From: Arenimonas donghaensis DSM 18148 = HO3-R19
GTDB taxonomy: Bacteria > Pseudomonadota > Gammaproteobacteria > Xanthomonadales > Xanthomonadaceae
Direction: 5' to 3'
DNA: 64,000 nucleotides
NCBI RefSeq assembly: GCF_000743535.1
Contig: NZ_AVCJ01000023.1
Location: 1 to 64,000, forward strand
The stretch's first letter is position 1, and each line of letters opens with the position of its first letter. The notes below the pieces were generated by a model. It made no database searches and had not been told where the DNA came from. It was given only the letters and a program-made list of their open reading frames with translations. Positions 33,907 through 62,697 of the stretch are shown here, in pieces. The position numbers and the translations under genes were made by a program.

Positions 33907-35103
33907 TCAATCGGCGGCGGTCGTGTCCCAGCCGCTCATCGCGTCGGCCATCACCAGGTCGCGGCCGGCGTGCTTGGCGGCGTACATGGCCCGGTCACCG
34001 CGCAGGAGCAGCTGCGAGAACAGCCGGTCTGCCGGGGCCAGCACCGCCACGCCGATCGACAGGGTCACTTTGCGCCGTTCGCCCTGAAGGTCCAGCGGCC
34101 GGTCCGAGAAGGCCTGGCGGATACGCTCGGCGGCAGCCACCGCGCTGGCGCCGTCGGTGTCGGGCATCAGCACGATGAATTCCTCGCCACCTAGCCGGCC
34201 CATCACGTCCTCGGCGCGCAGGCACTCGCGAATGCGCGCGACCGCCTGCACCAGGGCCAGGTCGCCAGCGGCGTGGCCCAGCTCGTCGTTGATGCGCTTG
34301 AAGTGGTCGATGTCCACCACCTGCACCGCCAGCGACACCCCGTGGCGCCGGGCGCCGGCGATGGCGCGCGTGCCCAGTTCCTCGATGGCGCGTCGGTTGT
34401 AGACATCGGTGAGGTAGTCCACGCGCGCCGCCCGTGCGAGCTCGCGCTGGCTGCGATCGGTGCACAGCAGCAGGAAGCCGACCGTCGCCACCACCGGCAG
34501 CACGCTGCCGACGCCATAGCTCAGCAGCTGCACGTGGTTGAGCTGGAATATGCCGGTGATCAGGCCGGGGTCCCACAGCAGCGCCATGGCCCGGTAGGCC
34601 ATGATCGCCGTCGCCGCGACGAAGGCGCCGCCGGCGACATGGCGGACCAGGCCGCGTGATTCGGGACCCCGGTAGATGGTCCATGCGCTGTAGCCGAGCA
34701 TCCCGGCCAGCACGGCCGAGATCGTGATCAGGCGCCAGGTGAGGTCGTCAACGACCAGGCCGAACCAGACCGATGCCGCCAGCGCCAGCGCCAGCGCCGC
34801 GCCCAAGCCGAGCACCGGCACCCGCAGCCGGTGGAAGCGCCGCAGCGCCACGGCATACGCGGCGAAGGCGCCGGCCACGAAGGCATTGGCCAGCACGATC
34901 GTCACCCAGGCCGGCAGCTGGTCGCGCTGGCTGAGCAACACCAGGCCGGTGGGCTGCAGCAAGGTGGCGGCGACCCACCAGTTCATCGCCGGGCGGAAGG
35001 CCGGGGACATGGCGCGGGCCACGACGGCCAGCAGGAGGCCGATCAGTACGGTGAGCAGGGCACCGACCAGCAGGCCGGAGCGGATGTCAAAGGACCATTG
35101 CAA
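33907..35103 (-). CDS. Diguanylate cyclase with seven-helix membrane sensor (paralogue of 37263)
   Basis: The 398-residue protein has about seven membrane helices in the first 215 residues and a C-terminal GGDEF domain with GGEEF at 305-309, the DIDHFKRINDELGH substrate loop and LSIGVA. The catalytic site looks intact. Its sensor region resembles that of the protein at 37263 (for example LLQPTGLVLLSQRDQLPAW here against LLQPIAWALLAARGHVPDA there), so the two are paralogues on either side of the terC-rhomboid pair. The ligand is unknown. It lies 81 bp after the rhomboid gene in the same direction. Confidence 0.92.
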   Translation of the reverse strand: MQWSFDIRSGLLVGALLTVLIGLLLAVVARAMSPAFRPAMNWWVAATLLQPTGLVLLSQRDQLPAWVTIVLANAFVAGAFAAYAVALRRFHRLRVPVLGLGAALALALAASVWFGLVVDDLTWRLITISAVLAGMLGYSAWTIYRGPESRGLVRHVAGGAFVAATAIMAYRAMALLWDPGLITGIFQLNHVQLLSYGVGSVLPVVATVGFLLLCTDRSQRELARAARVDYLTDVYNRRAIEELGTRAIAGARRHGVSLAVQVVDIDHFKRINDELGHAAGDLALVQAVARIRECLRAEDVMGRLGGEEFIVLMPDTDGASAVAAAERIRQAFSDRPLDLQGERRKVTLSIGVAVLAPADRLFSQLLLRGDRAMYAAKHAGRDLVMADAMSGWDTTAAD

Positions 35104-37158: not shown

Positions 37159-37262
37159 CGCAGAGTCTGCCATGCCAGGTTAACTTGATGTCAATCACAC
37201 CCACGCCGGCCACCTTGGCGCTAATCTGGCGCCTGGGCCGACGGCTCGCAAACAGGCAAACC

Positions 37263-38429
37263 ATGACGCTGGACGTGCTCTCGGTGATGAAGGTCGGCGT
37301 GCTGCTCAGCGCCCTGACCGTGCTGCTGCTCGCCCAGGCCGGCCAGGCGTTCCCTTCCGAACGCCGGCGCCACCTGCGCATCTGGACCGTTGGCCTGCTG
37401 CTGCAGCCCATTGCCTGGGCCCTGCTGGCGGCCCGTGGCCATGTCCCGGACGCGATCTCCATCGCCCTGGGCAATGGGTTACTGCTGTTGGGTTTCGCCG
37501 AAATGGCGCGCGCGGTGCGGGGTTTCCAGGAGCTGCCCGAACGACGCCTGCAGCTATGGGGGATCGTGCTGGCCGCCGTCGCCGGGCTGGTGTGGTTCTC
37601 CCAGTACCGCCCTGATTACAGCGCCCGGGTGTTGATCAATTCGGCCGCGGCCGGCGCCCTGCTGGGCGCGATCGCCCTGGCCATGCAGGCGGCCTACCGG
37701 CGCGGCGGCTTCACCGCGGCGCGCCTGACCGGGGCGTTCGCCGGCCTGGGGCTCATGGTGGCGGCCTGGCGCTTCATCGAGCACCTGCGCTTCCCGCGGC
37801 CCGAAGGCAGTCTGCTCGACGCCGGTCCGAGCGACATCGTGGTTTTCACGTATGCCTGCGTCGGGGTGATGTTCCTGAGCCTGGGTTTCATCCTGATGCA
37901 CACCGAACGGGCCTACGAATCCTTGCGCAGGCTGGCCACGGTGGATCCCCTGACCGGCGTGCTGGCCCGGAGCGGCCTGGTGGAACAGGGCGAGCGCCTC
38001 GTGTCGGAGGCGCGCCGGCATGGCCGACCGCTGGCGGTGCTGCTGATGGACATGGACCAGTTCAAGGCGGTCAACGACAGCCTCGGCCACGCCGCCGGCG
38101 ACGGGGTGCTCAAGCACCTGGCGTCGCGGGCGCGGCTGGTGCTGCGCGGCGAGGATGTCCTGGGCCGGTTGGGGGGCGACGAATTCGTGGCCCTGCTGCC
38201 CAGCACCGATGTCGCCGGTGCCCAGGTCGTGGCCGAGCGCTTGCGTGACGCCGTCAACCAGGCCCACATGCTTTACCGGGGCGAGGAAGTGCCGGTGCCG
38301 GTGTCGATCGGCGTCGCCCAGGCCGACGACCAGGAGCCCCTGGAAGCCGTGCTCCAGCGTGCCGACCAGGCGATGTACCAGGCCAAGCGCGCCGGCGGCG
38401 ACCGGGTGGCGGTGTCCCCGGCCCACTGA
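37263..38429 (+). CDS. Diguanylate cyclase with membrane sensor (paralogue of 33907)
   Basis: The start at 37263 (MTLDVLSVMKVGVLLSAL) gives 388 residues with about six or seven membrane helices and a C-terminal GGDEF domain with canonical GGDEF at 304-308 and DMDQFKAVNDSLGH. An alternative upstream start adds a poorly conserved leader that crosses the terC promoter. It is divergent from terC and upstream of the RlmI-like gene by 39 bp. Confidence 0.91.
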   Translation: MTLDVLSVMKVGVLLSALTVLLLAQAGQAFPSERRRHLRIWTVGLLLQPIAWALLAARGHVPDAISIALGNGLLLLGFAEMARAVRGFQELPERRLQLWGIVLAAVAGLVWFSQYRPDYSARVLINSAAAGALLGAIALAMQAAYRRGGFTAARLTGAFAGLGLMVAAWRFIEHLRFPRPEGSLLDAGPSDIVVFTYACVGVMFLSLGFILMHTERAYESLRRLATVDPLTGVLARSGLVEQGERLVSEARRHGRPLAVLLMDMDQFKAVNDSLGHAAGDGVLKHLASRARLVLRGEDVLGRLGGDEFVALLPSTDVAGAQVVAERLRDAVNQAHMLYRGEEVPVPVSIGVAQADDQEPLEAVLQRADQAMYQAKRAGGDRVAVSPAH

Positions 38430-41553: not shown

Positions 41554-42117
41554 ATGAGCGACCCCCGCGCCCACCTTGAATCCCTTCGCGAAGCCATCGT
41601 CGCCGCGTCGCCGGCGCAAGCCGCGCAGTGGCTGCTGCTGCTCGACAAGCTCGAGAAGGACCTGGGCACGCTGTCGGCCCAGCGCGACCGGCTGCGCCAG
41701 GACGTCGAAGACGCCGAACACGCCCGCGATGCCGCCAACCTGGCGCGCATGAAGGTGATGGGCCAGCTCAACACCCTGCAAAAAACCCTGGCCGCCGCCG
41801 TGCCCGAAGTGGCCTCGAGCAAGGACGCCCAGAGCGACGCCCAGCGTCGCGTCGAATGGCTGCTCAAGAGCGACGGCACCGACCCGGCCGCGGCCGAAGC
41901 CGCCAAGACCGCCGAGATGGAAGCCCCCATGCCCGGCCGTGCCGTGCTGGAAGCGGTGATCGCCGGCGACCGCAAGTTCACCAAGGCCCAGCTCGAGTTC
42001 ACCATCGCCGAAGCCATGGTGCTCACCGGCTGGCAGATGACCCCGCTCGAGCTCACCCAGAAGGGCGAGCCCTGGCTGGCCGACCTGATCCTGCAGAACC
42101 AGTCCGCCGCCGTCTGA
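41554..42117 (+). CDS. Coiled-coil protein of unknown function
   Basis: The 187-residue soluble protein begins MSDPRAHLESLREAIVAASP. It has a helical, heptad-like region at about residues 25-85 (LLDKLEKDLGTLSAQRDRLR) and a C-terminal globular part (KAQLEFTIAEAMVLTGWQM). No signal peptide, membrane helix or known motif is visible. It lies 42 bp after folE and could be co-transcribed. I do not recognise a family. Confidence 0.75.
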   Translation: MSDPRAHLESLREAIVAASPAQAAQWLLLLDKLEKDLGTLSAQRDRLRQDVEDAEHARDAANLARMKVMGQLNTLQKTLAAAVPEVASSKDAQSDAQRRVEWLLKSDGTDPAAAEAAKTAEMEAPMPGRAVLEAVIAGDRKFTKAQLEFTIAEAMVLTGWQMTPLELTQKGEPWLADLILQNQSAAV

Positions 42118-42173
42118 TCCCCCCGCGTACCCCGCCGGCCATGACTTCCGGCCCGTAGACACGGCCCGCGGCA

Positions 42174-42188
42174 CTACTACACTAGTAG
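42174..42188. promoter_or_regulatory. Candidate BlaI-type operator
   Basis: CTACTACACTAGTAG is an inverted repeat with perfect 6-bp arms and a 3-bp centre, 25 bp before the blaI-like GTG start. A TGTA at 42198-42201 further right could extend it to the TACA/TGTA pattern bound by BlaI/MecI repressors. Position and type fit autoregulation of the repressor-peptidase operon. Confidence 0.65.
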
Positions 42189-42212
42189 AACGACAGGTGT
42201 AGAGGACAAGCC

Positions 42213-42635
42213 GTGGCCCGGACCTCCAAGGACAGCCCCGAAGACGCTGGCGACGATGTCGCGCTGAGCGAACTGCAGCTCGACGTCATGCGCGTGCTCT
42301 GGCGCGGCGAGGCCAGCGTCGCCGAAGTCGCCTCGGCCCTGGCCGACAGCCGCGGCCTGGCCCACACCACCGTCGCGACCGTCCTGACCCGCCTGGGTCG
42401 TCGCGGCGTCGTCGCGGCGCGCCGCGAGGCCCGCCAATTGATCTACCGGGCCACGGTCAGCGAATCCCAGGTCCGCCGCAGCATGGTCGGCGACCTGGTC
42501 CAGACCCTGTTCAAGGGCGACCCCCGGGCCCTGCTCGCCCACCTCGTTCGCGAAAGCGACGTCGCCTCCGACGACCTCGCCCGGGTGCGGGCGCTGCTGG
42601 CCGAAGACCCCGACAAGGGAGGCACCCAGGCATGA
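42213..42635 (+). CDS. BlaI/MecI/CopY-family transcriptional repressor
   Basis: The 140-residue winged-helix protein shows the family pattern: LSELQLDVMRVLWRGEASVA, then LAHTTVATVLTRLGRRGVV with the recognition helix and wing, then a dimerisation helix. It starts with GTG after AGAGGAC. It overlaps the M56 gene by 4 nt (ATGA), so the repressor and membrane peptidase are translationally coupled, as in blaI-blaR1. In known systems the peptidase signals to inactivate the repressor. No beta-lactamase gene is adjacent. Confidence 0.93.
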   Translation: MARTSKDSPEDAGDDVALSELQLDVMRVLWRGEASVAEVASALADSRGLAHTTVATVLTRLGRRGVVAARREARQLIYRATVSESQVRRSMVGDLVQTLFKGDPRALLAHLVRESDVASDDLARVRALLAEDPDKGGTQA

Positions 42636-44986
42636 GCGCGCCGGACCTGCTGCTTTCCTGGCTGCTGACCCTGGCCCTGCACGCGACGGGGCTGCTGGCC
42701 CTGGCCTGGCTGCTTGAACGCCTCGGGGCCCTGCGCCATCCCGGTTGGCGCGAACTGGCCTGGCGCGGCGCGCTGTTCGGCGCCCTGCTGTCTTCGCTGG
42801 GAGCGACGGCCAACCAGCGCATGGCGGTCACCGCGACACCGGAGCCGTCGGTGCCAGCCGCCACCGAGGTCGCACCGCGCGACGAGGGCGGGCAACCGGT
42901 GCCCGCCAACCCGGCGCGGGCGCTACGCGCCACCCTCCCCGGCGAGTCCGGACTGCCCCAGGCGCTGGCGCGCAGGCAATCGGATACGCAGCGAAACCTC
43001 GCGAGCGCAGGAGAACGCGATGCCCTCCCCGCCGACGCCGCGCCGGTGACCTTGTCATTGCCCCTGGCCCTTGCTTCCGCCCTGCTGCTGGCCTGGGCCC
43101 TGGGCGGGCTGCCGGTAGCGCTGCGCCTGGCCGGCCAGGCCCGGGCGCTTGTGCGTTGGACCCGGAGCCCTCCGGGTCGGCCCGCCAGCGCTGCGACGGG
43201 TCTTGCGCAGATCGTCGAAGGCCTCGGTCGCGCCATGGGCCTGGACCACCTGCCGGGCCTGCGGCTTGTCGACGGGCTTTCGAGCCCGATGTTGCTGCCG
43301 GGGCGACGCTTGCTGCTTCCTTCCTGGGTTTGCGACCTCGACCCGGTGCAGCAGCGCGCCCTGCTGGCCCACGAACTGACCCACCTGCAGCGGCACGACC
43401 CGGCCTGGCGCCTGGCCCAGCGCCTGGCGGTGCTGCCGCTGTATTTCCACCCGCTGGCCTGGCTGGCGCTGCGCCGGCTCGAAGCCCTGTCCGAGGACGC
43501 CTGCGACGAGCGGGCCGCCACCCTGTGCGGTAGCGGCCGCCCCCTGGCCGAATGCCTGGCCGCCTGCCTGGCCCACGGCACCCGACCCACCACCGTCACG
43601 CCCACCCTTGCGGTCGCCATGGCCGCCGAACCCGGCCCCGTGGTCCGCCGGGTCCGCAACCTGCTGGAGCCAACGCCCATGAACCGTCCGATACCTCGCA
43701 CCCTGCGCCGCACCGCCCTGGTGGTCGGCCTCGCCGCCGCCCTGGCCCTGCCCGGCCTGGCCATCACCAGCGTCGCCAACCCGGCCTACGCGGAAGGCTT
43801 CCTCAGCGGTCTCTTCCAGGGCACCTCGGTCACCGAAACGGACACGAAGTCCCACTATGTGCACCGCAACGGCAGGACCGGCGAACGCATCGAGATGACC
43901 CTGCGCGGTGACGTCGTGTTCACCGAAGCCGAGGATGACATCGCTGCCATATCAGGGCCTGGCGAGTTCGAACTCTCGATCAAGCGCGGCGGCGTCGAAC
44001 GCAGTCTCCAGGTCTTGCCCGGCAAGGACGGGCTGGAGCGCGAGTACCGCGTGGACGGCAAGAAGCAGGCCTTCGATGCCGATGCCCGCGCCTGGCTGGC
44101 GAAGTCGTTGCCCCACCTGCTGCGCGAGACCGCGTTCCAGGCCGAAACGCGCGGCAAACGTTTCCTCGCACGCGGCGGCGCCGGCGCGCTGATGGATGAA
44201 ATCGACAAGATCCAGGGCGACCACGCCCGCGGCAAATACCTGGCCGTGCTGTTCGGCAACGCCCGCCTGGACGACAGCCAGCTGCAGCGCGCCATGGCCC
44301 TGGCGGCCGGCATCGGCTCGGACTACGAACTGCGCCAGGCGCTGTCGGCGGGCCTGGACAACCAGGCGATGACGCCCTCGGGCCAGGTGCGACTGCTGGA
44401 GACGGCCACGAAGATCGGCTCCGACTACGAACTCGCGCAACTGCTGGTGCAGCTGGCGAAGGCGCAGCCGCTGCAGGGTCCGGCGCTGCAGGCGTGGCGC
44501 ACGGCACTGGCCAGCATCGGCAGCGATTACGAACAGCGTCGCGTGCTTTCCGTCCTGCTCGACAAGCAAGACCCCGCGGCCGCCCGGCTTGCCCTGGAAA
44601 GCGCCGCGGCTATCGGCAGCGACTACGAGGCGCGCCAGGTGCTGGAAAAATCCGTGGCGATGGCGCGTGCGGACGCCGACGTGCGCGTGGCCTGGTTCCG
44701 GATCCTCGATGGCATCGGTTCGGACTACGAACAGCGCCAGGCCTTGCAGGCCCTGATCGACGCGGGTCCGGTGGACGCCGGGCTGGCAGGTGACGTCCTC
44801 GACGCGCTTGCAGACATCGGCTCGGGTTACGAGGTATCGCAGGTGCTGCGAGAACTGGCCGCAGTGATGCCGGGCGATGCAGCACTGATCGAACGCTACC
44901 GGGCGGTCGCGCGCCGTCTTTCGGACCACGAACGCGGCCAGGCTGAACGCGCGCTGGATCGTTTCAGCATGGCGTTGGTGGACTAG
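42632..44986 (+). CDS. M56 (BlaR1-type) membrane metallopeptidase with C-terminal IGSDYE repeats
   Basis: The 784-residue protein has membrane helices near the N-terminus (LLSWLLTLALHATGLLALAW) and around residue 140. The cytosolic zinc-protease motif HELTHLQRHDP is at 247-251, with downstream EDACDERAA. A last membrane helix near residue 365 (ALVVGLAAALALPGLAI) leads to a large periplasmic part. That part is not a penicillin-binding sensor as in BlaR1. It holds a beta-type segment and then six repeats starting IGSDYE at residues 561, 595, 629, 661, 695 and 729 (the sixth is IGSGYE), spaced 32-34 residues, suggesting an alpha-solenoid. The signal sensed is unknown. Confidence 0.9.
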   Translation: MSAPDLLLSWLLTLALHATGLLALAWLLERLGALRHPGWRELAWRGALFGALLSSLGATANQRMAVTATPEPSVPAATEVAPRDEGGQPVPANPARALRATLPGESGLPQALARRQSDTQRNLASAGERDALPADAAPVTLSLPLALASALLLAWALGGLPVALRLAGQARALVRWTRSPPGRPASAATGLAQIVEGLGRAMGLDHLPGLRLVDGLSSPMLLPGRRLLLPSWVCDLDPVQQRALLAHELTHLQRHDPAWRLAQRLAVLPLYFHPLAWLALRRLEALSEDACDERAATLCGSGRPLAECLAACLAHGTRPTTVTPTLAVAMAAEPGPVVRRVRNLLEPTPMNRPIPRTLRRTALVVGLAAALALPGLAITSVANPAYAEGFLSGLFQGTSVTETDTKSHYVHRNGRTGERIEMTLRGDVVFTEAEDDIAAISGPGEFELSIKRGGVERSLQVLPGKDGLEREYRVDGKKQAFDADARAWLAKSLPHLLRETAFQAETRGKRFLARGGAGALMDEIDKIQGDHARGKYLAVLFGNARLDDSQLQRAMALAAGIGSDYELRQALSAGLDNQAMTPSGQVRLLETATKIGSDYELAQLLVQLAKAQPLQGPALQAWRTALASIGSDYEQRRVLSVLLDKQDPAAARLALESAAAIGSDYEARQVLEKSVAMARADADVRVAWFRILDGIGSDYEQRQALQALIDAGPVDAGLAGDVLDALADIGSGYEVSQVLRELAAVMPGDAALIERYRAVARRLSDHERGQAERALDRFSMALVD
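44312..44914 (+). repeat. Six tandem protein repeats (about 34 codons each) in the M56 gene
   Basis: Repeat starts lie at 44312, 44414, 44516, 44612, 44714 and 44816, giving unit lengths of 102, 102, 96, 102 and 102 bp. The common core is I-G-S-D-Y-E-x-x-Q/R-x-L. The copies have diverged at the DNA level (codons for the core differ), so the array is old and kept by selection on the protein. Confidence 0.9.
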
Positions 44987-45083
44987 TCACCTTCCTGAAC
45001 GTTCCCATCGGGGTTTCACCCATTCGCGTCCGGAGGAGCGCATGCTGGCGGAGCATCTCCACAACAAGAACAGGAGTTCTGCC

Positions 45084-45800
45084 ATGAAAACAAGAAACCA
45101 CGTGCTCATCGCCACCGCCGTTTCCGCTGCGCTGCTTGCCGGCTGCGCGACGACGGGAGGCGGCTACTACGGTTCCAACCCGCCGCCGCAGCAGCAGACC
45201 GACCCCAATGACCGGGAAGGCATGAACCGCACCCAGCGCGGCGCCCTGATCGGCGCGGCCATCGGTGCCGTCGCCGGCCTCGTGAGTGGCGACGATGCGA
45301 CTGAACGTCGCCAGCATGCGCTGATCGGCGCCGGCGTCGGCGGCCTGGCCGGTGGCGCCATCGGCCGCTACCAGGACAACCAGGAGCGAGCACTTCGCGA
45401 ACGCATGCAGGGCACCGGCGTGGACGTGGTCCGCGACGGCGACCACATCACCCTGGACATGCCCGAGGCGATCACCTTCGCCTTCAACTCGAGCACGCTC
45501 AACCAGCGCGCCTACGGCGTGCTCGACCGCGTCGCCGACACGCTGCGCGAATACGACCAGACCATGATCGAGATCGCCGGCCACACCGACAGCATCGGCA
45601 GCGATGCCTACAACGACAAGCTGTCCAGGGAGCGCGCCCAGGCCGTGGCGAACTACCTGGTCAGCCGCGGCATCAGCGGCCAGCGCCTGATCATCACCGG
45701 CGCCGGCGAACGTTATCCGATCGCCAGCAACGACACCGAAGCCGGCCGCGCCGAGAACCGTCGCGTCGAGATGACCATCGTGCCGATCCGCAACGACTGA
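45084..45800 (+). CDS. OmpA-family lipoprotein with glycine-zipper segment
   Basis: The ATG at 45084 follows CAGGAG by 7 bp. The 238-residue product has a lipoprotein signal with lipobox LLAGC (Cys at about 21), a glycine-zipper hydrophobic stretch (GALIGAAIGAVAGLV and HALIGAGVGGLAGGAIGRY), and a C-terminal OmpA peptidoglycan-binding domain with GHTDSIGSDAYNDKLSRERA and the end AENRRVEMTI. It should tether the outer membrane to peptidoglycan. It resembles the YiaD type. Confidence 0.94.
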   Translation: MKTRNHVLIATAVSAALLAGCATTGGGYYGSNPPPQQQTDPNDREGMNRTQRGALIGAAIGAVAGLVSGDDATERRQHALIGAGVGGLAGGAIGRYQDNQERALRERMQGTGVDVVRDGDHITLDMPEAITFAFNSSTLNQRAYGVLDRVADTLREYDQTMIEIAGHTDSIGSDAYNDKLSRERAQAVANYLVSRGISGQRLIITGAGERYPIASNDTEAGRAENRRVEMTIVPIRND

Positions 45801-45817
45801 CGCGTATCGCCCGCACA

Positions 45818-45852
45818 AAAAAGAAGCCCCGGCAATGCCGGGGCTTTTTTTT
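45818..45852. terminator. Bidirectional terminator between the OmpA-type gene and the macroglobulin gene
   Basis: AGCCCCGGCA (45825-45834) and TGCCGGGGCT (45836-45845) form a GC-rich hairpin, flanked by eight T residues on the right and six A residues on the left. It can end transcription from both convergent genes. Confidence 0.95.
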
Positions 45853-45877
45853 GTGGGAAGACTTCAGCCGCCAAGGC

Positions 45878-48800
45878 TCAAGGCTGGATCTCCACCCAGT
45901 CGCCCGCCGTGTTGGCGCGACTTGCCCGCCCGTACATCAGCTCCGCCACGGCCGGTGGCGCGAAATAGCGCCCCGGGTGCTGCGCCTGCGCGAAGTAGTG
46001 CACTTCGTGGGTGCCGGGCGGCAGGCTTTCGGCGTACAGCCTGACTTCCGTGGCACCGGTCTGCCGGGTATCGAACCACCAGCTGCCTGGGTCGGCGACT
46101 TCGCGGACGTTTGCCCCTGCCACACCGGCCAGTCCGACGTCGCGGGTGGCCCAGCCGCCCGGCACGGTGTCGGTGATCGCCACGAAGTGGCGAAGCGCCG
46201 GCACCTGTAGCTGCAGGGTGACGCGGATCCACTCGCCGCGGCGTGCGCTGGTGCCGGAGAGCGCCTGCCAGCGGCCGTCGCGCAGCACCGAATAGCGTCG
46301 TTCGATGTTCAGTCCGACGCCACGGGCTTCCACCCTGGCCTGGTCCTGCCGGTAGCTCAGCTGCGCGACATAGTTGAGCGTCGCGCTATCGCCGCCAAGG
46401 GGCTTGAGCGCCAACTCGCTGGCTTCCGCCACGCCCTGCCAGCCAGCCCCGGCACCTTGTCCGTCCAGCACCAGGGTCGAGGACGTGGGTCCGTGCTCGA
46501 GCGCGACCGTGGCGGCCGTGGCCACGGAGCCGCGCGCGGCATCCACTGCACGCAGAGCCAGCAGACAATGCAGGCTGGCCTGCGTGTCGAGGCTGGAGGT
46601 GCCGCCGGCGTAAAGGTACTGAAGCCCCCGCAGGAAGGCCTGGCGCTCAGGCAGGCGGTCCGCGCTGGCATCGAGTGACCACAGCGCGGCGGTCACCGCG
46701 CATTGGTCGCGCAGGTCCGAGCCCATGGCCCAGCCAAAGCTCCGTGGGTCGCGGATGGTCCGACGCAGGCCACGCGACTCGCCGGCGGCGTACAGCCGTT
46801 GCAGTCCGGCGCGGAAGGATTCGGCGAAGTCCGGTGCGACCGACATGGCCTGGACCAGTTCGCTGCGTGCATGCCAGCTGAGGTGGTTCCAGTCCTGCCA
46901 GAGCCGCTGCAACGCCGCTGCCGGCGGATCGCCGTCTTCCGCGGCGAGCGCCGCCACACCTACGGCCAGGGCCTCAAGGCCGGTTCGGTCTTTTGCCTCG
47001 GCGACCCTGGTCGCCTGCGCGGCGACGTCGTCGCGCAAGTCGTCGTGGAGCCCGTCCGGCACGGCCTGGCCGAGGCGGCGCAGCCAGCCGAACTGGCGCA
47101 GGGTGTGCGCGTCGAGCAGCAGGTCGCCGGTCACGTCCCAGGGCCTGGCGGGCGGGAAGAAATGGAAGTGACCCTGCTCGTCCATGAAACCCGGCGCAGC
47201 GCCGAGTGCTTCGTCGATCACCGCCTGCGCATCCGGCCAGTCTGCGCGGTCGGCGGCGTCCTGGAGGGCAAGCGCGGCCCCCAGGGCGCGGCTGAGCGTC
47301 TGTTCCCAGCAACGATGCGGATAGTCGCGCAGCTCCCGCAGCCAGCCGGCGCGCCAGGCAGCCGTGCCAGCCGAGACCCGCACCTGCAGATGCGGCGTAT
47401 GGGCGTCGTCGGGCAGCGCCGGCAAGGGCAGCGATACCGGTGAAACCAACCAGCCCACCTGCGGCACCATGACCTCGGACCAGCGCGATTGCACCGGCAC
47501 GCGTGAAGACAGCGCATCGTTGCCGCGCTCGGTTTCAGCGCGGGCCAACACGTCGAGCGAGTCGGGCTCGGTGGGCGCCAGGGGAACGGGCCGGCTCAGC
47601 GCGGCGAACGGCGACAGCATCGCCGACGCCTCGTCAATTCGGGCAATGCCGGCGCCGTCGACAGCCACCTGCAGCGCCACGCGCTGCGGCGTGTCGCTGG
47701 CATTGCGTGCCGATACGCTGGCCTCTGCGCGGTCGCCGTCGAACAAGCGTGCCGGCAGGCCAAAGCGCAGCTCCACCGGCAGCGTGGTCGTGGCCGTCGC
47801 CTGCGACAGGTCGAAGCCGTCCGCCTGATCACCACTCCAGGCCAGCACGCGCCAGCGCGTCAGGTTGTCCGGCAGGCTGATCGACAGCTCGCGGCGTTCG
47901 CCCGGGGCCAGTTCGATGCCGGGGCTCCAGTACGCCGCGTCCGGGAACTGGCTGCGCACGCGGGGCCCATCGCGACCGGGTGCGGTGGCCGGTGCGCGTT
48001 CGAGCACTTCGTAGGCAGGCTCTTCGTTGAAGATGTCGGACCGCTTGAGCCGGCTACCCGTGACTTCGATCGTGTCCAGGCTATCGCTGGCGGCGTCGGC
48101 CGGTGCCGGACGAGCAAAAGCGACCGGCTCCTGCCGGAGACTCGACCGGCTGCGGAACGGATTGGCAATGCGCTGCCAAGCCTCCAGGCCGTGCCAGCCG
48201 CCTTCGCCCCAGGTCGACAGGCTTCCCAGGAAATCCGGACCACCAGGGTCCAGGGAAGGATGCAGTGCCGCCATCTGCTGGTGCACGGCGTCGTCGACGA
48301 CCGACAGCACGACCAGGCGGGCCTGGTCCGAACGGTTGTGCAGGGCCAGCCTGAGCGAATCGCTTGGCGCCAGCGAGTCATCGGCGACGGAAAGTGCAAG
48401 TCCGTCGGACCCGGCGCGCGGGATGGCGAGGCGCATCGCGGCATCGATCGTTTTCGCGTCCAGGCCCTGCCCGGCAGACGCCAGGGCGGGGCGCAGCATG
48501 ACGCGCAGGGTGACGCCGGGGGCCAGTTCGGACGAAACCGGCACGTCGATCTCCGTCTCCGTGCCGACCGACTGCGTCCAGTGGCGAATGACGCGGTCGT
48601 ACTCAAGCACGAACAGGGCGCTCGCCCTGGCGTGCGGCTGGCGCAGTCGGACGCGTGCCGGCGAGTGGCCGTCGCTGGCCTGCACCAGGGAAAGCTCCGC
48701 CAGCGCTTCGTCTTCGTCGTCAGGTGCGTACCGGCCGAACCAGCGGCCCAGTCGCGTCGGCGCGGCGCCTTCGGACTCCGCCACGAAAACGTAGTAACCC

Positions 48801-51454
48801 GGCCTGGGCACGGCGATGTCGCAGGGCGAGGCCGTGCCCGCCACCAGCGTGCAGCGACCGAGCAACTCTGCGTCTTGTTCGTCCCCGTCCTCGAGCCTGA
48901 CCTCCACCCGGCGACCAGGCTGCGACTTGCCATCGAAACCGACGACGACGGCCTCCAGCACCGGCGTTTCACCCAGGGCGTGCCAGTCACCTTCGCTGCG
49001 CAGGCCAACATAGCGATCGAAGGCTGCGATGCGCAGGTTGGCCGTGGGGCTGAAGGCGCCCGACTCACCGCCGACCATCAGGGCCGCGTTCACCCTGATC
49101 TGCGCGAAGGCCAGCGGGGTGAGGCTGTCGTCTTCGCCGCCATCGTCGTGTTCCAGGCGCGTGGGCAGCGTCAGTTCCACTTCGGCACGGCCTTTTCCGT
49201 CCACGGTGCGCGGGACTTCCAGGTCCTTGAACGGGTCGGCTTCGGACGCTTCGTGCGCCGCGGGCTCGATGAAGGTGAACCCCGCGAAGTCCGGGTAGGC
49301 CTCCTCGAACGCCATGGGCACCAGCAGCCCGGACACATGCAGCGGGGCATCCGCCGCGGGGCCGCCGGAGTAGTAGCCACCTTCGATCGCCATCGACACC
49401 TGCTCGCCTGGCCGGTGCACGCGCGTCGGCAGCGCCAGTGTTGCCCACATCGCCTGGGTTTCGAACCGGCGGACTTCGAAGCAGGCACCGGTGGGGGACC
49501 AGGCGTGGGCGAGCGAGTCCGCTTCGCCGATGCAGTAGCCTCCGTCGCGCAGGTTGGCCGGTAGCGCGACCTCGCCCGCGATGCTGCCCCAGGCGTCCGT
49601 CACCGCGGTCCAAGTGCGGACCGGCCTGTCCGAGGGAACCGACAGCGCCAGCTCCGTCTCGGTGCCGGGCGCGATCCTGCGCAAGGTGTTGAGCTGCCGT
49701 TCGCGCTGCCACAGCCTGAAATTCACGGTGTCGCCAGGCCGGTAAAGCAAGCGATCGGTCACACCAAACGCAGGCGAGGTGTCTGGCCGCGGCGGTCGGT
49801 ACCAGTCCGGTGCATCCTCCCCGTCCGAGCGTCGCAGCTTCATTCCCGTCGTGGCGTGCAGCGGCAACACCGTGACCCGACGGCCCTGGGTGGCGCGCAG
49901 CAAGTGGAGGACGTCCTGTTGAAGGACATCCTGTCCGGCCACGGGCTCGGGAAGCGAAAGCAGGGCGACGCCGTCGGCATCCGTTTGCGCTGATGCCACG
50001 ACCTTGAGCTTGCCCTGCGGGCTCAGCGCCAGCACGTCCAGGCGTGCGCCGGGCACGGGCCCGGCATCCGCCCACTCCGTTGCCCACGCGAGCAGGTCCG
50101 GGCCGTGGCGGTTCACCAGCAGCTGGAACGCCGGCAGTGCCGTGGCGCGCGCTTCGGCGCCATCGACGACACCGCCCAGCGAGAGCCCGCCGTGGCGCAA
50201 CACGCCCCATGCGGGATCGGGTGACCGGGCATCGCCGTAGGTCTCCCGCGCCGCGGGAACCACCAGGCGGTCCAGGACGAGGCGGGTCCGGCGGCCGATG
50301 GACAGTTCCTTCCAGTGGTCGCGTCCTTCTGGATTCCGGGATTCGACCCGGGTGGCCTCGTTTGAACCGGGCAAGGCAAGGTGGACTGAAGGCTCGATGC
50401 GATAGCCCGGTGGATGCGACGCCACGTCGAGCCGCACTTCGGTTTTACCGGTCAGCCGCGAACCATCGTTGGCGTCGAGGCCGGCGGGGAGCTCGAAGGC
50501 AAGGGTCGTGCCGGCGAGCGTGCTGGCCAGTCGGATGGCGTGTGCGGGGGCGTCGTTGCGCGAGCGCTGGCCGTAGCAGCGGTAGTCGCAGTCACGTGGT
50601 TCCTCGGCCAGGACCAAACCCTTCGGCAGGGCGGCGGCGACCCGTTCTAGGCTGGCGTCCGACGGCGCCCGCGAGAACAGCAGCAACACATCGCTTTGCG
50701 CGCTGCATAGCGCACCGTCCGTGGAGTCGGCATGCGGCCCATGGCTGGCGCAGGACGTCGCCAGCAGCCGGAACGGCATGTTGATGGCGACGTCCAGCAG
50801 GCTTTCGTCGGCGTCGCCGAGGGCCGGACCCAGCGGTGAGCGCAGGCCCTGGCGCAGGGAAAGGCGCAGGCGACCCGGGCGGGCGGGCCAGGCCGTCGGC
50901 ATCCAGCGGTAGGTGACACTGTCGGGTGGATCGTACTGGCCCGGCTCAACGCGCTCGAGGGAATAGTCGATCGTTTCGTTTTCGAAGCGGGCGTCCACTA
51001 CGGCACGGATGTCGGCGGCCGCCAATGGCTGCGAAGAACGAAGCAGGACCGCGGGCAATCCAGCGCGCCAGTCGGTCGTGGTGGCGTCAAGGGACGGTGG
51101 CGAAGAAACCAGCGTGACCGTCGTGGGCTCGAACGCCTGGCCCGCTTGTGACCAAAGCCGTTCGCCGATCTGAACCTGGTAGGGCGTGGCCTTGCGCAGC
51201 GGCTCGGTGCCCATGCCACCGGTGTCGCAGGCCAGCGTGGTGTCGTCCACCCAATACCAGCCGCATGCGGCTTCGGGTGTGGTCCTGAGTGCATCGCCGT
51301 GATTGGGCGTTGCCCAGGTCAGCATCGGCTGGTCGAAGACCAGTTCGAAGTTGCCGCCCACGATCCCGGCGGACGTGAGTTCGGGCGGGGTCTCGGCGAC
51401 CGCCAGCATCGGCCAGGCCAGGAGCAGGGTGGCAAGACAGGATCGCAACTGCAT
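45878..51454 (-). CDS. Bacterial alpha-2-macroglobulin-like protein (large, thioester CWEQ)
   Basis: The 1858-residue protein starts with a Sec signal (MQLRSCLATLLLAWPMLAVAE) and lacks a clear lipobox, unlike E. coli YfhM. Macroglobulin domains are indicated by LYRPGDTVNFRLW and many Ig-like beta segments. The thioester motif is CWEQ with Cys1382 in HRCWEQTLSR, followed by an alpha/alpha-toroid region (RSFGWAMGSDLRDQCAV). It is probably a periplasmic protease trap. Around residues 1123-1155 there is an unusual segment, DSLDTIEVTGSRLKRSD, which looks like the N-terminal TonB-box region of TonB-dependent receptors. The common partner gene pbpC is not next to it. Confidence 0.9.
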   Translation of the reverse strand: MQLRSCLATLLLAWPMLAVAETPPELTSAGIVGGNFELVFDQPMLTWATPNHGDALRTTPEAACGWYWVDDTTLACDTGGMGTEPLRKATPYQVQIGERLWSQAGQAFEPTTVTLVSSPPSLDATTTDWRAGLPAVLLRSSQPLAAADIRAVVDARFENETIDYSLERVEPGQYDPPDSVTYRWMPTAWPARPGRLRLSLRQGLRSPLGPALGDADESLLDVAINMPFRLLATSCASHGPHADSTDGALCSAQSDVLLLFSRAPSDASLERVAAALPKGLVLAEEPRDCDYRCYGQRSRNDAPAHAIRLASTLAGTTLAFELPAGLDANDGSRLTGKTEVRLDVASHPPGYRIEPSVHLALPGSNEATRVESRNPEGRDHWKELSIGRRTRLVLDRLVVPAARETYGDARSPDPAWGVLRHGGLSLGGVVDGAEARATALPAFQLLVNRHGPDLLAWATEWADAGPVPGARLDVLALSPQGKLKVVASAQTDADGVALLSLPEPVAGQDVLQQDVLHLLRATQGRRVTVLPLHATTGMKLRRSDGEDAPDWYRPPRPDTSPAFGVTDRLLYRPGDTVNFRLWQRERQLNTLRRIAPGTETELALSVPSDRPVRTWTAVTDAWGSIAGEVALPANLRDGGYCIGEADSLAHAWSPTGACFEVRRFETQAMWATLALPTRVHRPGEQVSMAIEGGYYSGGPAADAPLHVSGLLVPMAFEEAYPDFAGFTFIEPAAHEASEADPFKDLEVPRTVDGKGRAEVELTLPTRLEHDDGGEDDSLTPLAFAQIRVNAALMVGGESGAFSPTANLRIAAFDRYVGLRSEGDWHALGETPVLEAVVVGFDGKSQPGRRVEVRLEDGDEQDAELLGRCTLVAGTASPCDIAVPRPGYYVFVAESEGAAPTRLGRWFGRYAPDDEDEALAELSLVQASDGHSPARVRLRQPHARASALFVLEYDRVIRHWTQSVGTETEIDVPVSSELAPGVTLRVMLRPALASAGQGLDAKTIDAAMRLAIPRAGSDGLALSVADDSLAPSDSLRLALHNRSDQARLVVLSVVDDAVHQQMAALHPSLDPGGPDFLGSLSTWGEGGWHGLEAWQRIANPFRSRSSLRQEPVAFARPAPADAASDSLDTIEVTGSRLKRSDIFNEEPAYEVLERAPATAPGRDGPRVRSQFPDAAYWSPGIELAPGERRELSISLPDNLTRWRVLAWSGDQADGFDLSQATATTTLPVELRFGLPARLFDGDRAEASVSARNASDTPQRVALQVAVDGAGIARIDEASAMLSPFAALSRPVPLAPTEPDSLDVLARAETERGNDALSSRVPVQSRWSEVMVPQVGWLVSPVSLPLPALPDDAHTPHLQVRVSAGTAAWRAGWLRELRDYPHRCWEQTLSRALGAALALQDAADRADWPDAQAVIDEALGAAPGFMDEQGHFHFFPPARPWDVTGDLLLDAHTLRQFGWLRRLGQAVPDGLHDDLRDDVAAQATRVAEAKDRTGLEALAVGVAALAAEDGDPPAAALQRLWQDWNHLSWHARSELVQAMSVAPDFAESFRAGLQRLYAAGESRGLRRTIRDPRSFGWAMGSDLRDQCAVTAALWSLDASADRLPERQAFLRGLQYLYAGGTSSLDTQASLHCLLALRAVDAARGSVATAATVALEHGPTSSTLVLDGQGAGAGWQGVAEASELALKPLGGDSATLNYVAQLSYRQDQARVEARGVGLNIERRYSVLRDGRWQALSGTSARRGEWIRVTLQLQVPALRHFVAITDTVPGGWATRDVGLAGVAGANVREVADPGSWWFDTRQTGATEVRLYAESLPPGTHEVHYFAQAQHPGRYFAPPAVAELMYGRASRANTAGDWVEIQP

Positions 51455-55191: not shown

Positions 55192-56313
55192 CTAGCTTTC
55201 CAGCCGGTCCCGCCCGGCTTGCTTGGCCCGGTACAGGGCTTCGTCGGCCCGCTGCAACAGCGCCTGGGAGGGCTCGTCTTCACGCTGCTCGGCCAGTCCC
55301 GCCGAAAAGGTGGCCACCAGCGGTCCGGCGCTGGTTTCAAACGGTGTCCGTGCCACCGCCGCGCGCATGCGCTCGAGGCACACCCGGGCGCCGGCCAGCG
55401 GCGTGCCCGGCAGGATGATCATGAACTCCTCGCCGCCGAACCGCCCCAGCGTGCGTTCCGGGGCCTGGCCGACGTGGTCGACGAAGCGGGCCTGCAGTCG
55501 CAGGATGGCGGCGAACTGCACCAGCACCTCGTCCCCGACCGCGTGGCCGTGGGTGTCGTTGATCGCCTTGAAATGATCGATGTCGATCAGCGCGACGCTG
55601 AAACCCTGGCCGTAACGGCGGCTGCGTTCGCTTTCCTGTTCCAGCCGCTCGGTCAGGTGGCGGCGGTTGTACAGGCCGGTCAGTTCGTCCCGGATGGAGA
55701 GCTCGCGCAGCCTGGCGTTCGCCGCTTCCAGTTCCTTGCGTTGGGTCGCGACGCGGCGCCGGATGGAGGCGAAGTAGCCGCCGATGAAGCTCATCCAGAT
55801 CGTGACGACCACCAGCGCCGAGAAGCGCAGCGCCTCCATCAGCCAGGCGTCCTGCGAGGCCCCGGCGCTGGCCAGTTCCCAGGTGCTGAGCCCGGCGTAG
55901 CCGACGGCGGTGCCGATGGTGAGCAGGAGGTAACGCCGGGTGTCGAGCCCGAACAGGCCGAAGAAGAACACCGCCACGAACAGCAGCAACAGGACGCTGC
56001 GCGCTTCGCCTTCGAAAAAGTGGATCATGCCCAGCGCCAGCAGCATTGCCGCCACCAGCTGCGGCACCAGCAGGCTGGGGTCGGCGAAACGTTTGCTCCA
56101 GCCGCTCGCGATCGCCGCCAGCGCCACCCCGTTGATCGACACCGCCAGGCCGGTGAATACCGCGACCCCGGACCAGCCCATGGTCGAGCTGCCCGCGTGC
56201 ACCGCGATGCTCATCGGCACCAGAAACATCAGGTAGGACAACAGGCCCAGGCAAACACGGCGCAGGCGCAGGCGGGTTTCCCGATCGAACTGGCGGGCGG
56301 GCCGTCCGGACAT
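55192..56313 (-). CDS. Membrane-bound diguanylate cyclase
   Basis: The 373-residue protein has about six membrane helices in the first 190 residues, a short coiled coil (TQRKELEAANARLRELS) and a GGDEF domain with an intact GGEEF at 293-297 plus IDIDHFKAINDTHGH. It should synthesise c-di-GMP. It is transcribed divergently from the REC-EAL gene across a 95-bp spacer (56314-56408). Confidence 0.93.
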   Translation of the reverse strand: MSGRPARQFDRETRLRLRRVCLGLLSYLMFLVPMSIAVHAGSSTMGWSGVAVFTGLAVSINGVALAAIASGWSKRFADPSLLVPQLVAAMLLALGMIHFFEGEARSVLLLLFVAVFFFGLFGLDTRRYLLLTIGTAVGYAGLSTWELASAGASQDAWLMEALRFSALVVVTIWMSFIGGYFASIRRRVATQRKELEAANARLRELSIRDELTGLYNRRHLTERLEQESERSRRYGQGFSVALIDIDHFKAINDTHGHAVGDEVLVQFAAILRLQARFVDHVGQAPERTLGRFGGEEFMIILPGTPLAGARVCLERMRAAVARTPFETSAGPLVATFSAGLAEQREDEPSQALLQRADEALYRAKQAGRDRLES

Positions 56314-56408: not shown

Positions 56409-57605
56409 ATGAGTCTGTCGGAATTACGCGTACTGCTGGTCGAGGACCACGGGTTCCAGCGCCGGCTCGGCCTGCGCCTGCTGGGTGACCTGGGCCTGGA
56501 GCACCTGCACGAGGCGGCCGACGGTTTCCAGGCCCTGGACCTGCTGCGCGGCTTGCCCGACAGCCCCGACGTGGTGCTGGTGGACCTGGACATGCCCGGC
56601 ATGGACGGCGTCGAGTTCATCGGCATCGTCGCCCAGGAACGACTGGCCCAATCCATCGCCGTGGTCAGCGCCATGGAGCCGGCCCTGCTGCATACCGTGC
56701 AGGTGATGGCCAAGGCGTCCGGCCTGCGTGTGCTGGGCTGCATTGAAAAGCCGCTAACACCGGGCAAACTTACTACCGTCCTGTCGCTTTATGAAAAGTC
56801 ACCGGGGCCCTCGGCGGCAGTCAACGACATCGAGGTGTCGCTCGACCAGGCCCGCGAAGCGCTCTCGCGCGGCGAGATCACCGCCCACTTCCAGCCCCAG
56901 GTCGAGTTCGGCAACGGCAAGGTCTTCGGCGTCGAGGCCCTGGCCCGCTGGCGACTTTCCGATGACGTGCACGTGCCGCCGGCGCTGTTCGTACCGCTCA
57001 TGGAGGCCGGCGGGCTGATCGATGAACTCACCGGCCTGATGCTGGTGCAGGCCTGCGCCTGGTCCAAGCGCTGGCAGGCGCGTGGCCTCGACCTGAAGGT
57101 GTCGGTGAACGTGTCGGCACAAAACCTGACCGGCCCGGAAGTGGCCGATCGCTACGAGGCGGTGCTGCGCGAACACGGCGTCAGCCCGGAGCAGATCGTG
57201 CTCGAGATCACCGAAAGTTCGGTCATGTCCGACACCGCGCGCGGCCTGGGCATGCTGGCGCGCTTGCGGCTCAAAGGCTTCGGCCTGAGCGTGGACGACT
57301 TCGGCACCGGCTATTCGTCGCTGTCGCAGCTCTCGCAGATCCCCTTCACCGAACTCAAGATCGACCGCGGCTTCGTTTCCGGCGCGCCGACCCAGCCGCG
57401 CAAGCGCGCGATGATCGAAACCAGCCTGGACCTGGCACGCAAGCTGGGGCTGTCGGTGGTCGCCGAAGGCGTCGAAACCATCGACGAGTGGCAGCTGCTG
57501 GCCGGGCTGGGCTGCGACTTCGCCCAGGGCTACCTGATCTCCGCGCCGGTGCCGGGAGACCAGCTGCCCGACGCCATCCAGCGCTGGCGACAGACCCACC
57601 ACTAG
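56409..57605 (+). CDS. Response regulator with EAL phosphodiesterase output
   Basis: The 398-residue protein has a receiver domain at about 1-125 with phospho-acceptor Asp59 in LVDLDMPGMDG and a Lys in CIEKPLTPGK. A complete EAL domain follows: E176-A-L in GVEALARW, VLEITESS, DDFGTGYSS, ELKIDRGFV and AEGVET. All metal and catalytic residues appear present, so it should hydrolyse c-di-GMP under phosphorylation control. It is followed after 7 bp by the hybrid kinase, its likely partner. Confidence 0.94.
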   Translation: MSLSELRVLLVEDHGFQRRLGLRLLGDLGLEHLHEAADGFQALDLLRGLPDSPDVVLVDLDMPGMDGVEFIGIVAQERLAQSIAVVSAMEPALLHTVQVMAKASGLRVLGCIEKPLTPGKLTTVLSLYEKSPGPSAAVNDIEVSLDQAREALSRGEITAHFQPQVEFGNGKVFGVEALARWRLSDDVHVPPALFVPLMEAGGLIDELTGLMLVQACAWSKRWQARGLDLKVSVNVSAQNLTGPEVADRYEAVLREHGVSPEQIVLEITESSVMSDTARGLGMLARLRLKGFGLSVDDFGTGYSSLSQLSQIPFTELKIDRGFVSGAPTQPRKRAMIETSLDLARKLGLSVVAEGVETIDEWQLLAGLGCDFAQGYLISAPVPGDQLPDAIQRWRQTHH

Positions 57606-60604: not shown

Positions 60605-62458
60605 GTGAACAAGATCAAGACCGTTGTCGTCGCAGTCGCGCTTGCGCTGCCGGCGTTCGCCATCGCGCAGTCGCCCAGCAATGATGCCGGCGTCCCGGAA
60701 CCGGCCGCCAAGCCGGCCAAGCCGGCTTTCTCCGGCATCGAGAAGGCCACTATCTCCGGCAGCTTGAGCTTCGATGGCAGCGAGGCGCTCATGTCGCCGC
60801 GCTTCTTCCGACCCGGAACGCCTGGCGATCCCTGTGCCGAGTTCTCGGCCGGCAACTTCCAGTACCGCACCGTGCCGTTCACCACCGACGGCAGCGGCTC
60901 GCTGACGGCCAGCCTGGACACCGGCAGCTGCGGCGTCGACGTTTATGTCACCTTCCACGAGGCGAGCTTCAATCCGTCGAGCATCTGCGACAACTTCGTC
61001 TGGTCCGAGGGCTCTTCCACGAATATCTGGAGCAATACTTTCCCCGTGCCGGCGAACGCGCCGATGGTGATGGTGCTCAGTGGCGTCCCCGCCGCCCCCG
61101 GCGTCAGTTGCGGACCGATCAACTACACGCTCGACGGCACCGCCAGCGTGACGCTGGACAATCCCTTCACCAACGTGCCGGTGTACGTGGCCGAGGAACT
61201 GATCATCCCGCCGGCTCGCACGCTGGCCAATGCCTCGGGCAACCTCGATATCGTCACCGACATCGACTACGCGTTCTCCCCAGGTGAAGTCCGCTACGCG
61301 CGGTTCCATTGCCCGGGCATCGAGTTCGAGCCGGGAACCACCGTCACCTTCACCGGCGATCCGTCGAACCTGATCGGTGCCGTCAATGGCGTCGGCACCG
61401 ACGCCCTCTACTTCTCGATAACTGCCGGCGCCACCCCCGTGGTCGCGACCGACCAACTGGTGCTCGATGGCGACCGCACGCTGGCCGACAAGGATCCGGT
61501 GGACTGTACCTACGGCCTGTACGACTTCCCGTCCCAGGCCCAGGCCGGAGGTCCGACCGGCCGCGTCGTCGAAACCGGTGGTGCCTACATCCGCTTCGCG
61601 CCGAGCTACGGCCTCGTGATCGACACGCAGGGCAATCCGGTGGCCGACGTCGAGTCCAACGACCCGGCCTACAGCGAATTCGAAGTGGCGGCGCCGACTT
61701 TCAGCGAATTCCAGGGCAATGTCGGCGGATTCAGCTATGGCACCGTGCAGCAGCTGGGCCTGAGCGCGCAGCCGGTGACGCTGGACGGCGAAGCCATCGA
61801 GCTGGTCGACCTGATGGATGCCGACACCGCGCTGGTGTTCACGGGTGACTTCGAGGCCGCTGCGGACGTGTACTTCAGCCCCGGCGTCGATTGCTCGATC
61901 AATATCCAGTCTGCCGACAGCTTCGATGACACGGGTGCCGTCTTCACCATCGGCAGCAACCCGGCGATGAACCACTACCTTTGCTACCAGACCGGTGGCG
62001 TAGCGATCCGCGCCAGCGAAGTCACGGTCGCCCTGGCCCCGGTTTCGGCCGCGCCGGCCGTCTACGCCGTGGGCTCCCGCGGTCCGCTGGACCTGGGCGA
62101 GATCACCCGCAACGGCACCGAGCTGCAGGCCCCGCTGGCCCAGATCCCGGGCGGCTGGCTGAGCCGCCTGGTGCTGACCAACCGCGGCACGCAGGATCGT
62201 GAGTACGAGATCACCGTGTTCGGCGAGACCGGCACCACCATCTCGACCAACAACCTGACCGGCACCGTTGACGCCGAGTCGACCCTGGTGATCGACCTGG
62301 ACACCGTGCTCACCGGCTTCACGGGCGGCCTGCCGCGCGCGACGCTGAACGTGACGGTGGCGGCCCCGAACAACACGATCCAGGGCCTGTACCAGATCGT
62401 GAACCCGGATTCGGGCTCGATCTCCAACCACGTGATGGTGCGTCCGGGCAGCAACTAG
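60605..62458 (+). CDS. Secreted beta-rich protein of unknown function (paralogue 1)
   Basis: The 617-residue product starts with GTG and a Sec signal (MNKIKTVVVAVALALPAFA, cut near AIA). The mature protein is beta-rich, Gly/Thr/Asp-rich and acidic, with Cys residues that could form disulphides, as in exported proteins. Its middle third (from about residue 185 to 325) is strongly similar to the next gene: both have EELIIPPARTL/ANELIIPPGRTI, SPGEVRYARFHCPG, GDPSN-IGAVNG and YGLYDFPSQAQAGG. The C-terminal region (GGWLSRLVLTNRGTQDREYE) looks like an Ig-like fold. I do not recognise a named family. Confidence 0.8.
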   Translation: MNKIKTVVVAVALALPAFAIAQSPSNDAGVPEPAAKPAKPAFSGIEKATISGSLSFDGSEALMSPRFFRPGTPGDPCAEFSAGNFQYRTVPFTTDGSGSLTASLDTGSCGVDVYVTFHEASFNPSSICDNFVWSEGSSTNIWSNTFPVPANAPMVMVLSGVPAAPGVSCGPINYTLDGTASVTLDNPFTNVPVYVAEELIIPPARTLANASGNLDIVTDIDYAFSPGEVRYARFHCPGIEFEPGTTVTFTGDPSNLIGAVNGVGTDALYFSITAGATPVVATDQLVLDGDRTLADKDPVDCTYGLYDFPSQAQAGGPTGRVVETGGAYIRFAPSYGLVIDTQGNPVADVESNDPAYSEFEVAAPTFSEFQGNVGGFSYGTVQQLGLSAQPVTLDGEAIELVDLMDADTALVFTGDFEAAADVYFSPGVDCSINIQSADSFDDTGAVFTIGSNPAMNHYLCYQTGGVAIRASEVTVALAPVSAAPAVYAVGSRGPLDLGEITRNGTELQAPLAQIPGGWLSRLVLTNRGTQDREYEITVFGETGTTISTNNLTGTVDAESTLVIDLDTVLTGFTGGLPRATLNVTVAAPNNTIQGLYQIVNPDSGSISNHVMVRPGSN

Positions 62459-62582: not shown

Positions 62583-62598
62583 TGTGACATATTTCACG
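62583..62598. promoter_or_regulatory. CRP/Clp-type binding site upstream of the second secreted-protein gene
   Basis: TGTGACATATTTCACG matches the TGTGA-N6-TCACA consensus at 9 of 10 fixed positions. An extended -10-like TGCTAGGT lies at 62618-62625, at a distance close to a class II activator arrangement. Clp is the CRP-like regulator of extracellular enzymes in Xanthomonas and Lysobacter. Confidence 0.7.
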
Positions 62599-62697
62599 GG
62601 CCGAAATAGCGGGTTCGTGCTAGGTGAGGCCTTTGCGCCGTGCCTCCCAACGATCCCGGGCAGCTGGGGAACCAATCCACTTTGGGGGAATTACGCA

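Follow-up and report, generated by a model that had tools for sequence, protein, structure and literature searches.

A BlaI-type repressor and M56 peptidase pair in Arenimonas donghaensis whose C-terminal repeat module has no database name

Genes and features of the locus

The window analysed here is the whole 64,000-nucleotide stretch of Arenimonas donghaensis DSM 18148 (contig NZ_AVCJ01000023.1, positions 1 to 64,000), part of a 2.98 Mb genome in 51 contigs (Arenimonas-type, Lysobacteraceae). It holds, on one strand, a BlaI/MecI/CopY-family repressor gene (blaI) and a gene for a BlaR1-type M56 membrane metallopeptidase, the stop of the former and the start of the latter overlapping by 4 bases (ATGA). 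This pair had been recognized in a preliminary description of the DNA, and both open reading frames (ORFs) and their Pfam families were borne out. The peptidase, whose closest named loci come mostly from Arenimonas species, ends in a module of a beta-like segment and repeats, so that the system is an M56/BlaI variant carrying a putative sensor domain without a database name. The features are as follows (aa, amino acids; nt, nucleotides):

42140–42155, + strand: conserved upstream element CATGACTTCCGGCCCG, with a TGAC[CT]T core in relatives
42156–42183, + strand: promoter-like pair TAGACA – 16 nt – TACACT, by consensus match only
42174–42203, no strand assigned: predicted composite operator of two neighbouring dyads overlapping the predicted −10, from the pattern in relatives
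42213–42635, + strand: BlaI/MecI/CopY-family repressor gene, 140 aa, GTG start (PF03965, 99.3 bits)
42632–44986, + strand: M56 (BlaR1-type) membrane metallopeptidase with C-terminal repeat module, 784 aa (PF05569, 58.3 bits)
43370–43384, + strand: zinc site HELTH, residues 247–251 (H247, E248 and H251 in 20/20 relatives)
43493–43507, + strand: E288-xxx-D292, counterpart of BlaR1 E242-xxx-D246 (20/20 relatives)
43616–43651, + strand: possible autocleavage loop A329-M330 with R340, placed by a constant offset of +46 from BlaR1 S283-F284 and R294
43859–44131, + strand: beta-like segment with RxYxVDG and DAxAxAWLA motifs, residues about 410–500, from alignments
44174–44983, + strand: repeat region of 7–8 units of ~34 residues, core [ILM]xSD[YF]E, residues 515–784, from the sequence

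The repressor matched the winged-helix family profile Penicillinase_R of Pfam well above its cut-off of 22.6 bits and shared 54–75% identity with 12 aligned orthologues; a defence library gave only weak helix-turn-helix matches for it and none for the peptidase. The coupling of repressor and peptidase, as first proposed for this locus alone, proved general, a BlaI-family gene standing immediately upstream of the M56 gene in 27/27 distinct M56-fused loci with upstream sequence. These comprise the window, 16 relatives, L059–L061, L065, L067, L074, L080, L082, L083 and L084; named loci duplicating genomes already counted were taken once, loci starting inside the peptidase gene (L031/L063, L072, L073, L076) were omitted, and a weak second match in G014 (L029/L048) stands outside the counts. 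His110 was found in 15/15 aligned repressors, followed by Leu in 13 and by Phe in two TonB-type paralogues; its mapping to Asn101-Phe102, the cleavage site in S. aureus, rests on a profile offset of 9–10.

The Pfam Peptidase_M56 match covers residues 111–341 of the peptidase. The key residues of BlaR1 are given as His201, His205, Asp210, Glu242, Asp246, Tyr261, the autocleavage site Ser283-Phe284 and Arg294 in the available text of PMC9834060. An offset of +46 places H247, H251, D256, E288, D292, A329-M330 and R340 in the peptidase, its extension beyond residue 292 (to 340) being an assumption. H247, E248, H251, D256, E288, D292 and R340 were kept in 20/20 relatives and A329 and M330 each in 19/20; near the candidate autocleavage loop, R339 occurred in 8/20 and L326 in 11/20. 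The peptidase had been said to keep the BlaR1 signalling core, and this is supported by the invariance of HExxH...ExxxD and D256 and by the match of profile A5 across the protease region to two BlaR1 structures, 8exs and 8exp (about 6e-5). Three other M56 peptidases of the same genome (L049, L050 and L051 on contigs C14, C48 and C51) share the M56 core, and two of the three stand beside a BlaI-family gene, but they end in TonB_C (PF03544) in place of the repeat module, and their repressors are 26–28% identical to that of the window.

The C-terminal module and its relatives

Six IGS[DG]YE cores, beginning at residues 561, 595, 629, 661, 695 and 729 (spacings of 34, 34, 32, 34 and 34), are flanked by the degenerate copies IQGDHA at 527 and RLSDHE at 762. 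The module had been described as six regular 34-residue repeats; the six cores stand, whereas the number of units is 7–8 and the spacing is not uniform. Over residues 520–784 an offset of 34 gave 58 identities, against an average of 29.6 and a maximum of at most 40 for the best offset between 20 and 59 in shuffled sequences (n = 2000). Among 76 units cut from 17 aligned proteins, 61 were exactly 34 long, and most of these carried Ser at position 3 (58 units), Asp at 4 (59), Tyr or Phe at 5 (60), Glu at 6 (57), Arg at 8 (47) and Leu at 11 (57). The S-x-x-E ahead of a hydrophobic stretch resembles the helix-capping box of a two-helix repeat; a solenoid fold is likely. The repeat length near 34 and the helix-cap-like SxxE pattern are points of likeness to the alpha-solenoid families TPR, HEAT, Arm, PPR and TALE, but no Pfam model of these families matched the module, and its repeats have no credible relative among PDB sequences.

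The searches placed the repeat in no described sensor family. Pfam gave nothing above cut-off in the C-terminal half of the peptidase; Pfam, NCBIfam and PDB sequences named no part of the C-terminus, the beta-like segment included; and the curated solenoid repeat models of Pfam and NCBIfam did not match the window protein or its relatives, the rare weak matches being to unrelated families. PDB searches with C-terminal alignments found no credible relative. A designed repetitive protein (8prj) matched part of the beta-like segment at 7e-4, a weak lead in which no single stretch passed. Titles and abstracts in one open-access literature library held no report concerning such repeats in an M56 protein, PMC12578637 being a false match. 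No penicillin-binding domain was found and the repeat module occupies the C-terminus, in line with the earlier view that the penicillin sensor has been replaced. An AxA stretch follows the last membrane segment in 4/4 Arenimonas rows of the alignment and is not kept across other rows; signal-peptidase release was dropped as a general feature.

The module, in which SD[YF]E repeats (SDG[ED] in the Acidobacteriota) follow a beta-like segment, was present in 17/198 genomes of the family search, this genome included. A profile search of 398 genomes of the phylum returned this genome, two more from a different family of the same order and three from other parts of the phylum, six in all. Named genomes, scanned with one short peptide pattern and hence undercounted, yielded 26 loci: 17 of Lysobacteraceae type, six from Acidobacteriota and one each from Gemmatimonadota, Duganella and an uncultured bacterium. 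With a wider profile, matches in 12 genomes were confined to one gene in each (in G519 split by a stop), and no relative was found in viral contigs. Two loci, L057 (elsewhere in the phylum) and L081 (Bryobacterales), carry the module behind one hydrophobic N-terminal segment, as judged by eye; neither locus showed an M56 domain or a match to the BlaI of the window, a comparison that a diverged BlaI could escape.

Some variants of the module were also seen. Three of the 26 loci, L086, L087 and L088, encode M56 proteins that share the beta-like segment alone and continue with other C-terminal sequence, L086 seeming by eye to hold two copies of the segment. In the Acidobacteriota loci L082 and L084, SSDGDK- and SSDGDH-type units alternate, suggesting by eye a two-unit period. 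L064, titled Rhizobium sp. MAG (metagenome-assembled genome), is an Arenimonas-type locus matching a same-genus genome and is probably a mislabelled bin.

Operator and promoter

The palindrome CTACTA-CAC-TAGTAG at 42174–42188, already pointed out as an operator, is real and forms half of a larger composite operator (42177–42203), for which the sequences ahead of blaI in relatives give the consensus CTACAnnTGTMGTACKACAnnTGTAG. In a survey of 26 genomes, 19 with the system and seven without, and with the reversed pattern as control, the composite operator lay at the blaI promoter in 18 of the 19; the contig of the remaining one (G164) opens within the peptidase gene. Away from the locus there were eight matches (four in system genomes and four in the others), each differing from the pattern at two positions, compared with 38 such matches of the control. 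Within this genome, the fuller pattern built from the relatives and this site was unique at ≤3 mismatches (control 0), and the dyad pattern matched this site alone, against seven control matches. A single sigma-70-like site occurs in 42050–45900 (mean of 0.1 in shuffles), with its predicted −10 inside the operator. The BlaI-type dyad operator is a predicted site at the repressor's own promoter, which appears to be its only recognizable DNA target. A comparable arrangement is described for BlaI_1845 of C. thermocellum, whose paired inverted repeats were found only at its own operon according to the available text of PMC8457756, although this self-only repressor of the BlaI family comes from a distant bacterium and has a different half-site.

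A TGAC[CT]T core precedes the operator by 35–37 nt in 17/24 promoters as counted by script, and also in L033 and L038; five promoters are without it. The conserved element ahead of the blaI promoter in relatives reads CATGACTTYCGGCCCG. Fourteen sites in this genome fit the upstream element at ≤2 mismatches (seven for the control), two of which (L095 and L096) keep the core ATGACTTCCGGCC ahead of other ORFs, one of them Mrp-like by eye.

Readings of the system

Switches of the BlaR1 type are best known for their part in sensing for drug resistance; BlaR1 has four membrane segments with both ends outside, and its loop EL1 plugs the sensor. The present system resembles BlaR1/BlaI and MecR1/MecI (MEROPS M56 with a BlaI-family repressor) in its M56 protease residues, adjoining BlaI-type gene, TACA-nn-TGTA dyad operator over the promoter and probable C-terminal extracytoplasmic domain, and differs from them in lacking a penicillin-binding sensor, a conserved Tyr261 and a conserved plug loop, in having no beta-lactamase or penicillin-binding protein gene found nearby and in an operator at its own promoter only. 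We consider it on balance probable that the locus encodes a BlaR1-like sensing and proteolysis loop with a different periplasmic sensor, controlling mainly its own operon. In this model, for which the sequence shows the pairing, the catalytic residues, the module and the place and rarity of the operator, the zinc site of the peptidase would face the cytoplasm and the C-terminal module, as beta-like segment and alpha-alpha repeat solenoid, the periplasm, where a ligand, probably a peptide, protein or envelope polymer, would unplug and so open the peptidase, which otherwise blocks itself. The open peptidase would cut BlaI near His110-Leu111, and the cut repressor would come off the composite operator that overlaps the −10 of the blaI promoter. 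Since that promoter is the one recognizable target, the direct output would be a surge of the receptor itself, to which read-through into a downstream lipoprotein gene may add in some Arenimonas. The existence of a conserved branch that combines another sensor with a changed active-site region and an operator confined to its own promoter suggests that machinery of this type may serve ordinary envelope sensing in several phyla, and the compact locus with its one defined promoter offers a clear setting for a nameless repeat domain, in which the ligand question is directly testable.

Several observations weigh against this reading. The equivalent of Tyr261, required near the zinc site in BlaR1 as stated in the available text of PMC9834060, is not conserved within residues 293–315, where individual members have Tyr at 305 (L080) or 310 (L085), the exact position of the equivalent being uncertain (L305 by alignment A5, E307 by constant offset and elsewhere by paralogue alignment). 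The plug loop, which in BlaR1 joins the first and second halves of the membrane domain, is likewise not conserved, only P70 and P138 reaching 80% within residues 60–149. Hydropathy gave three clear membrane segments (5–29, 134–168 and 360–383), not four, at the threshold used, the second being weak. Hydrophobicity in the two halves of the repeat has its periodicity maxima at 80 and 95 degrees, which is roughly helical at best. The module-only loci L057 and L081 indicate that the module can function without a switch of this kind, and in the Duganella locus L085 the BlaI/M56 pair and the beta-like segment are kept while the repeats have decayed, with a composite operator fitting 20/22 consensus positions. 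A regulator without a target beyond itself would also be odd, and weak or diverged sites could have escaped.

The strongest rival, itself unlikely, is that the module is an effector rather than a sensor, a periplasmic scaffold, inhibitor or binding protein, tethered or released, whose amount alone is set by BlaI and the peptidase. The operator at the own promoter only, the module-only relatives and the AxA stretch of the Arenimonas proteins are consistent with this, whereas the lack of conservation of that stretch across other rows and a domain order and BlaI pairing as in BlaR1, whose C-terminal domain is the sensor in the available text of PMC9834060, favour sensing. A classical sensor of beta-lactams or cell-wall fragments would use the same protease and repressor families and is nevertheless very improbable: a transpeptidase-type domain was absent in 20/20 relatives scanned at E 0.01, the NCBIfam BlaR1 model gave 16.8 bits on the peptidase against a cut-off of 400, and no beta-lactamase or transpeptidase family was found among the 25 of 46 window gene products sent to Pfam (most of the other 21 lying before 20 kb), consistent with the early remark that no beta-lactamase is nearby. 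Three of the BlaR1 features tested (sensor domain, Tyr261 and plug loop) do not hold here, and the system ought not to be classed among beta-lactam sensors. We attach little probability to a wider BlaI regulon reached through diverged or single-dyad sites missed by the patterns; these allowed ≤3 mismatches, and exact single dyads occurred off-locus six times in the 19 system genomes, but the reversed control gave 94 forward-strand matches in the same genomes and the searches of the own genome found the blaI promoter alone. A broader extension of the favoured sensing loop, distinctly unlikely as a whole, is that SD[YF]E modules form a new periplasmic solenoid class reading a polymeric envelope ligand (glycan strand or extended peptide) through a polar motif in each unit. 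The module would then be at once the sensor and the sole product of a self-contained proteolytic feedback loop that has no regulon outside itself, and would serve other lineages as a free-standing exported protein.

Two genes downstream of the peptidase bear on a further alternative:

45084–45800, + strand: YiaD-type glycine-zipper/OmpA lipoprotein, a variable neighbour, start 45084 picked by eye
45878–51454, − strand: bacterial alpha-2-macroglobulin (PF17973, PF01835, PF00207), convergent, a variable neighbour outside the system

These had been pointed out as envelope-defence genes, with a link implied, and an envelope-stress regulator meant to control them, though improbable in our view, could draw on the position of the lipoprotein gene (250 bits to NCBIfam YiaD_Gzip_OmpA on the ORF 45042–45797), 98 bp downstream of the peptidase gene on the same strand. 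The gap holds no terminator-like site and its folding is unremarkable (z 0.39), so that read-through may occur. Of seven Arenimonas-type loci, four have the lipoprotein gene immediately after the peptidase gene, one has it upstream of blaI, and three have the macroglobulin gene close by. A. terrae lacks both genes, and comparison with the 14 other relatives turned up neither. Because linkage varies within the genus, the two are not conserved partners, an idea dropped after comparison of 20 distinct relative loci; the macroglobulin gene moreover lies on the opposite strand, and neither gene showed an operator-like site in this genome.

An indolepyruvate oxidoreductase gene was directly next and convergent in 8/20 relative loci, further downstream in six and not found in six, so that an operon always ending at this convergent gene was too strong a statement. 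Elsewhere in the window, the long ORFs 60605–62455 and 62584–63999 had no Pfam family at 1e-5, and the 25 scanned products include four GGDEF proteins and one EAL response regulator (20116–22995, 33910–35103, 37185–38426, 55195–56313 and 56409–57602), many cyclic-di-GMP genes for one window.

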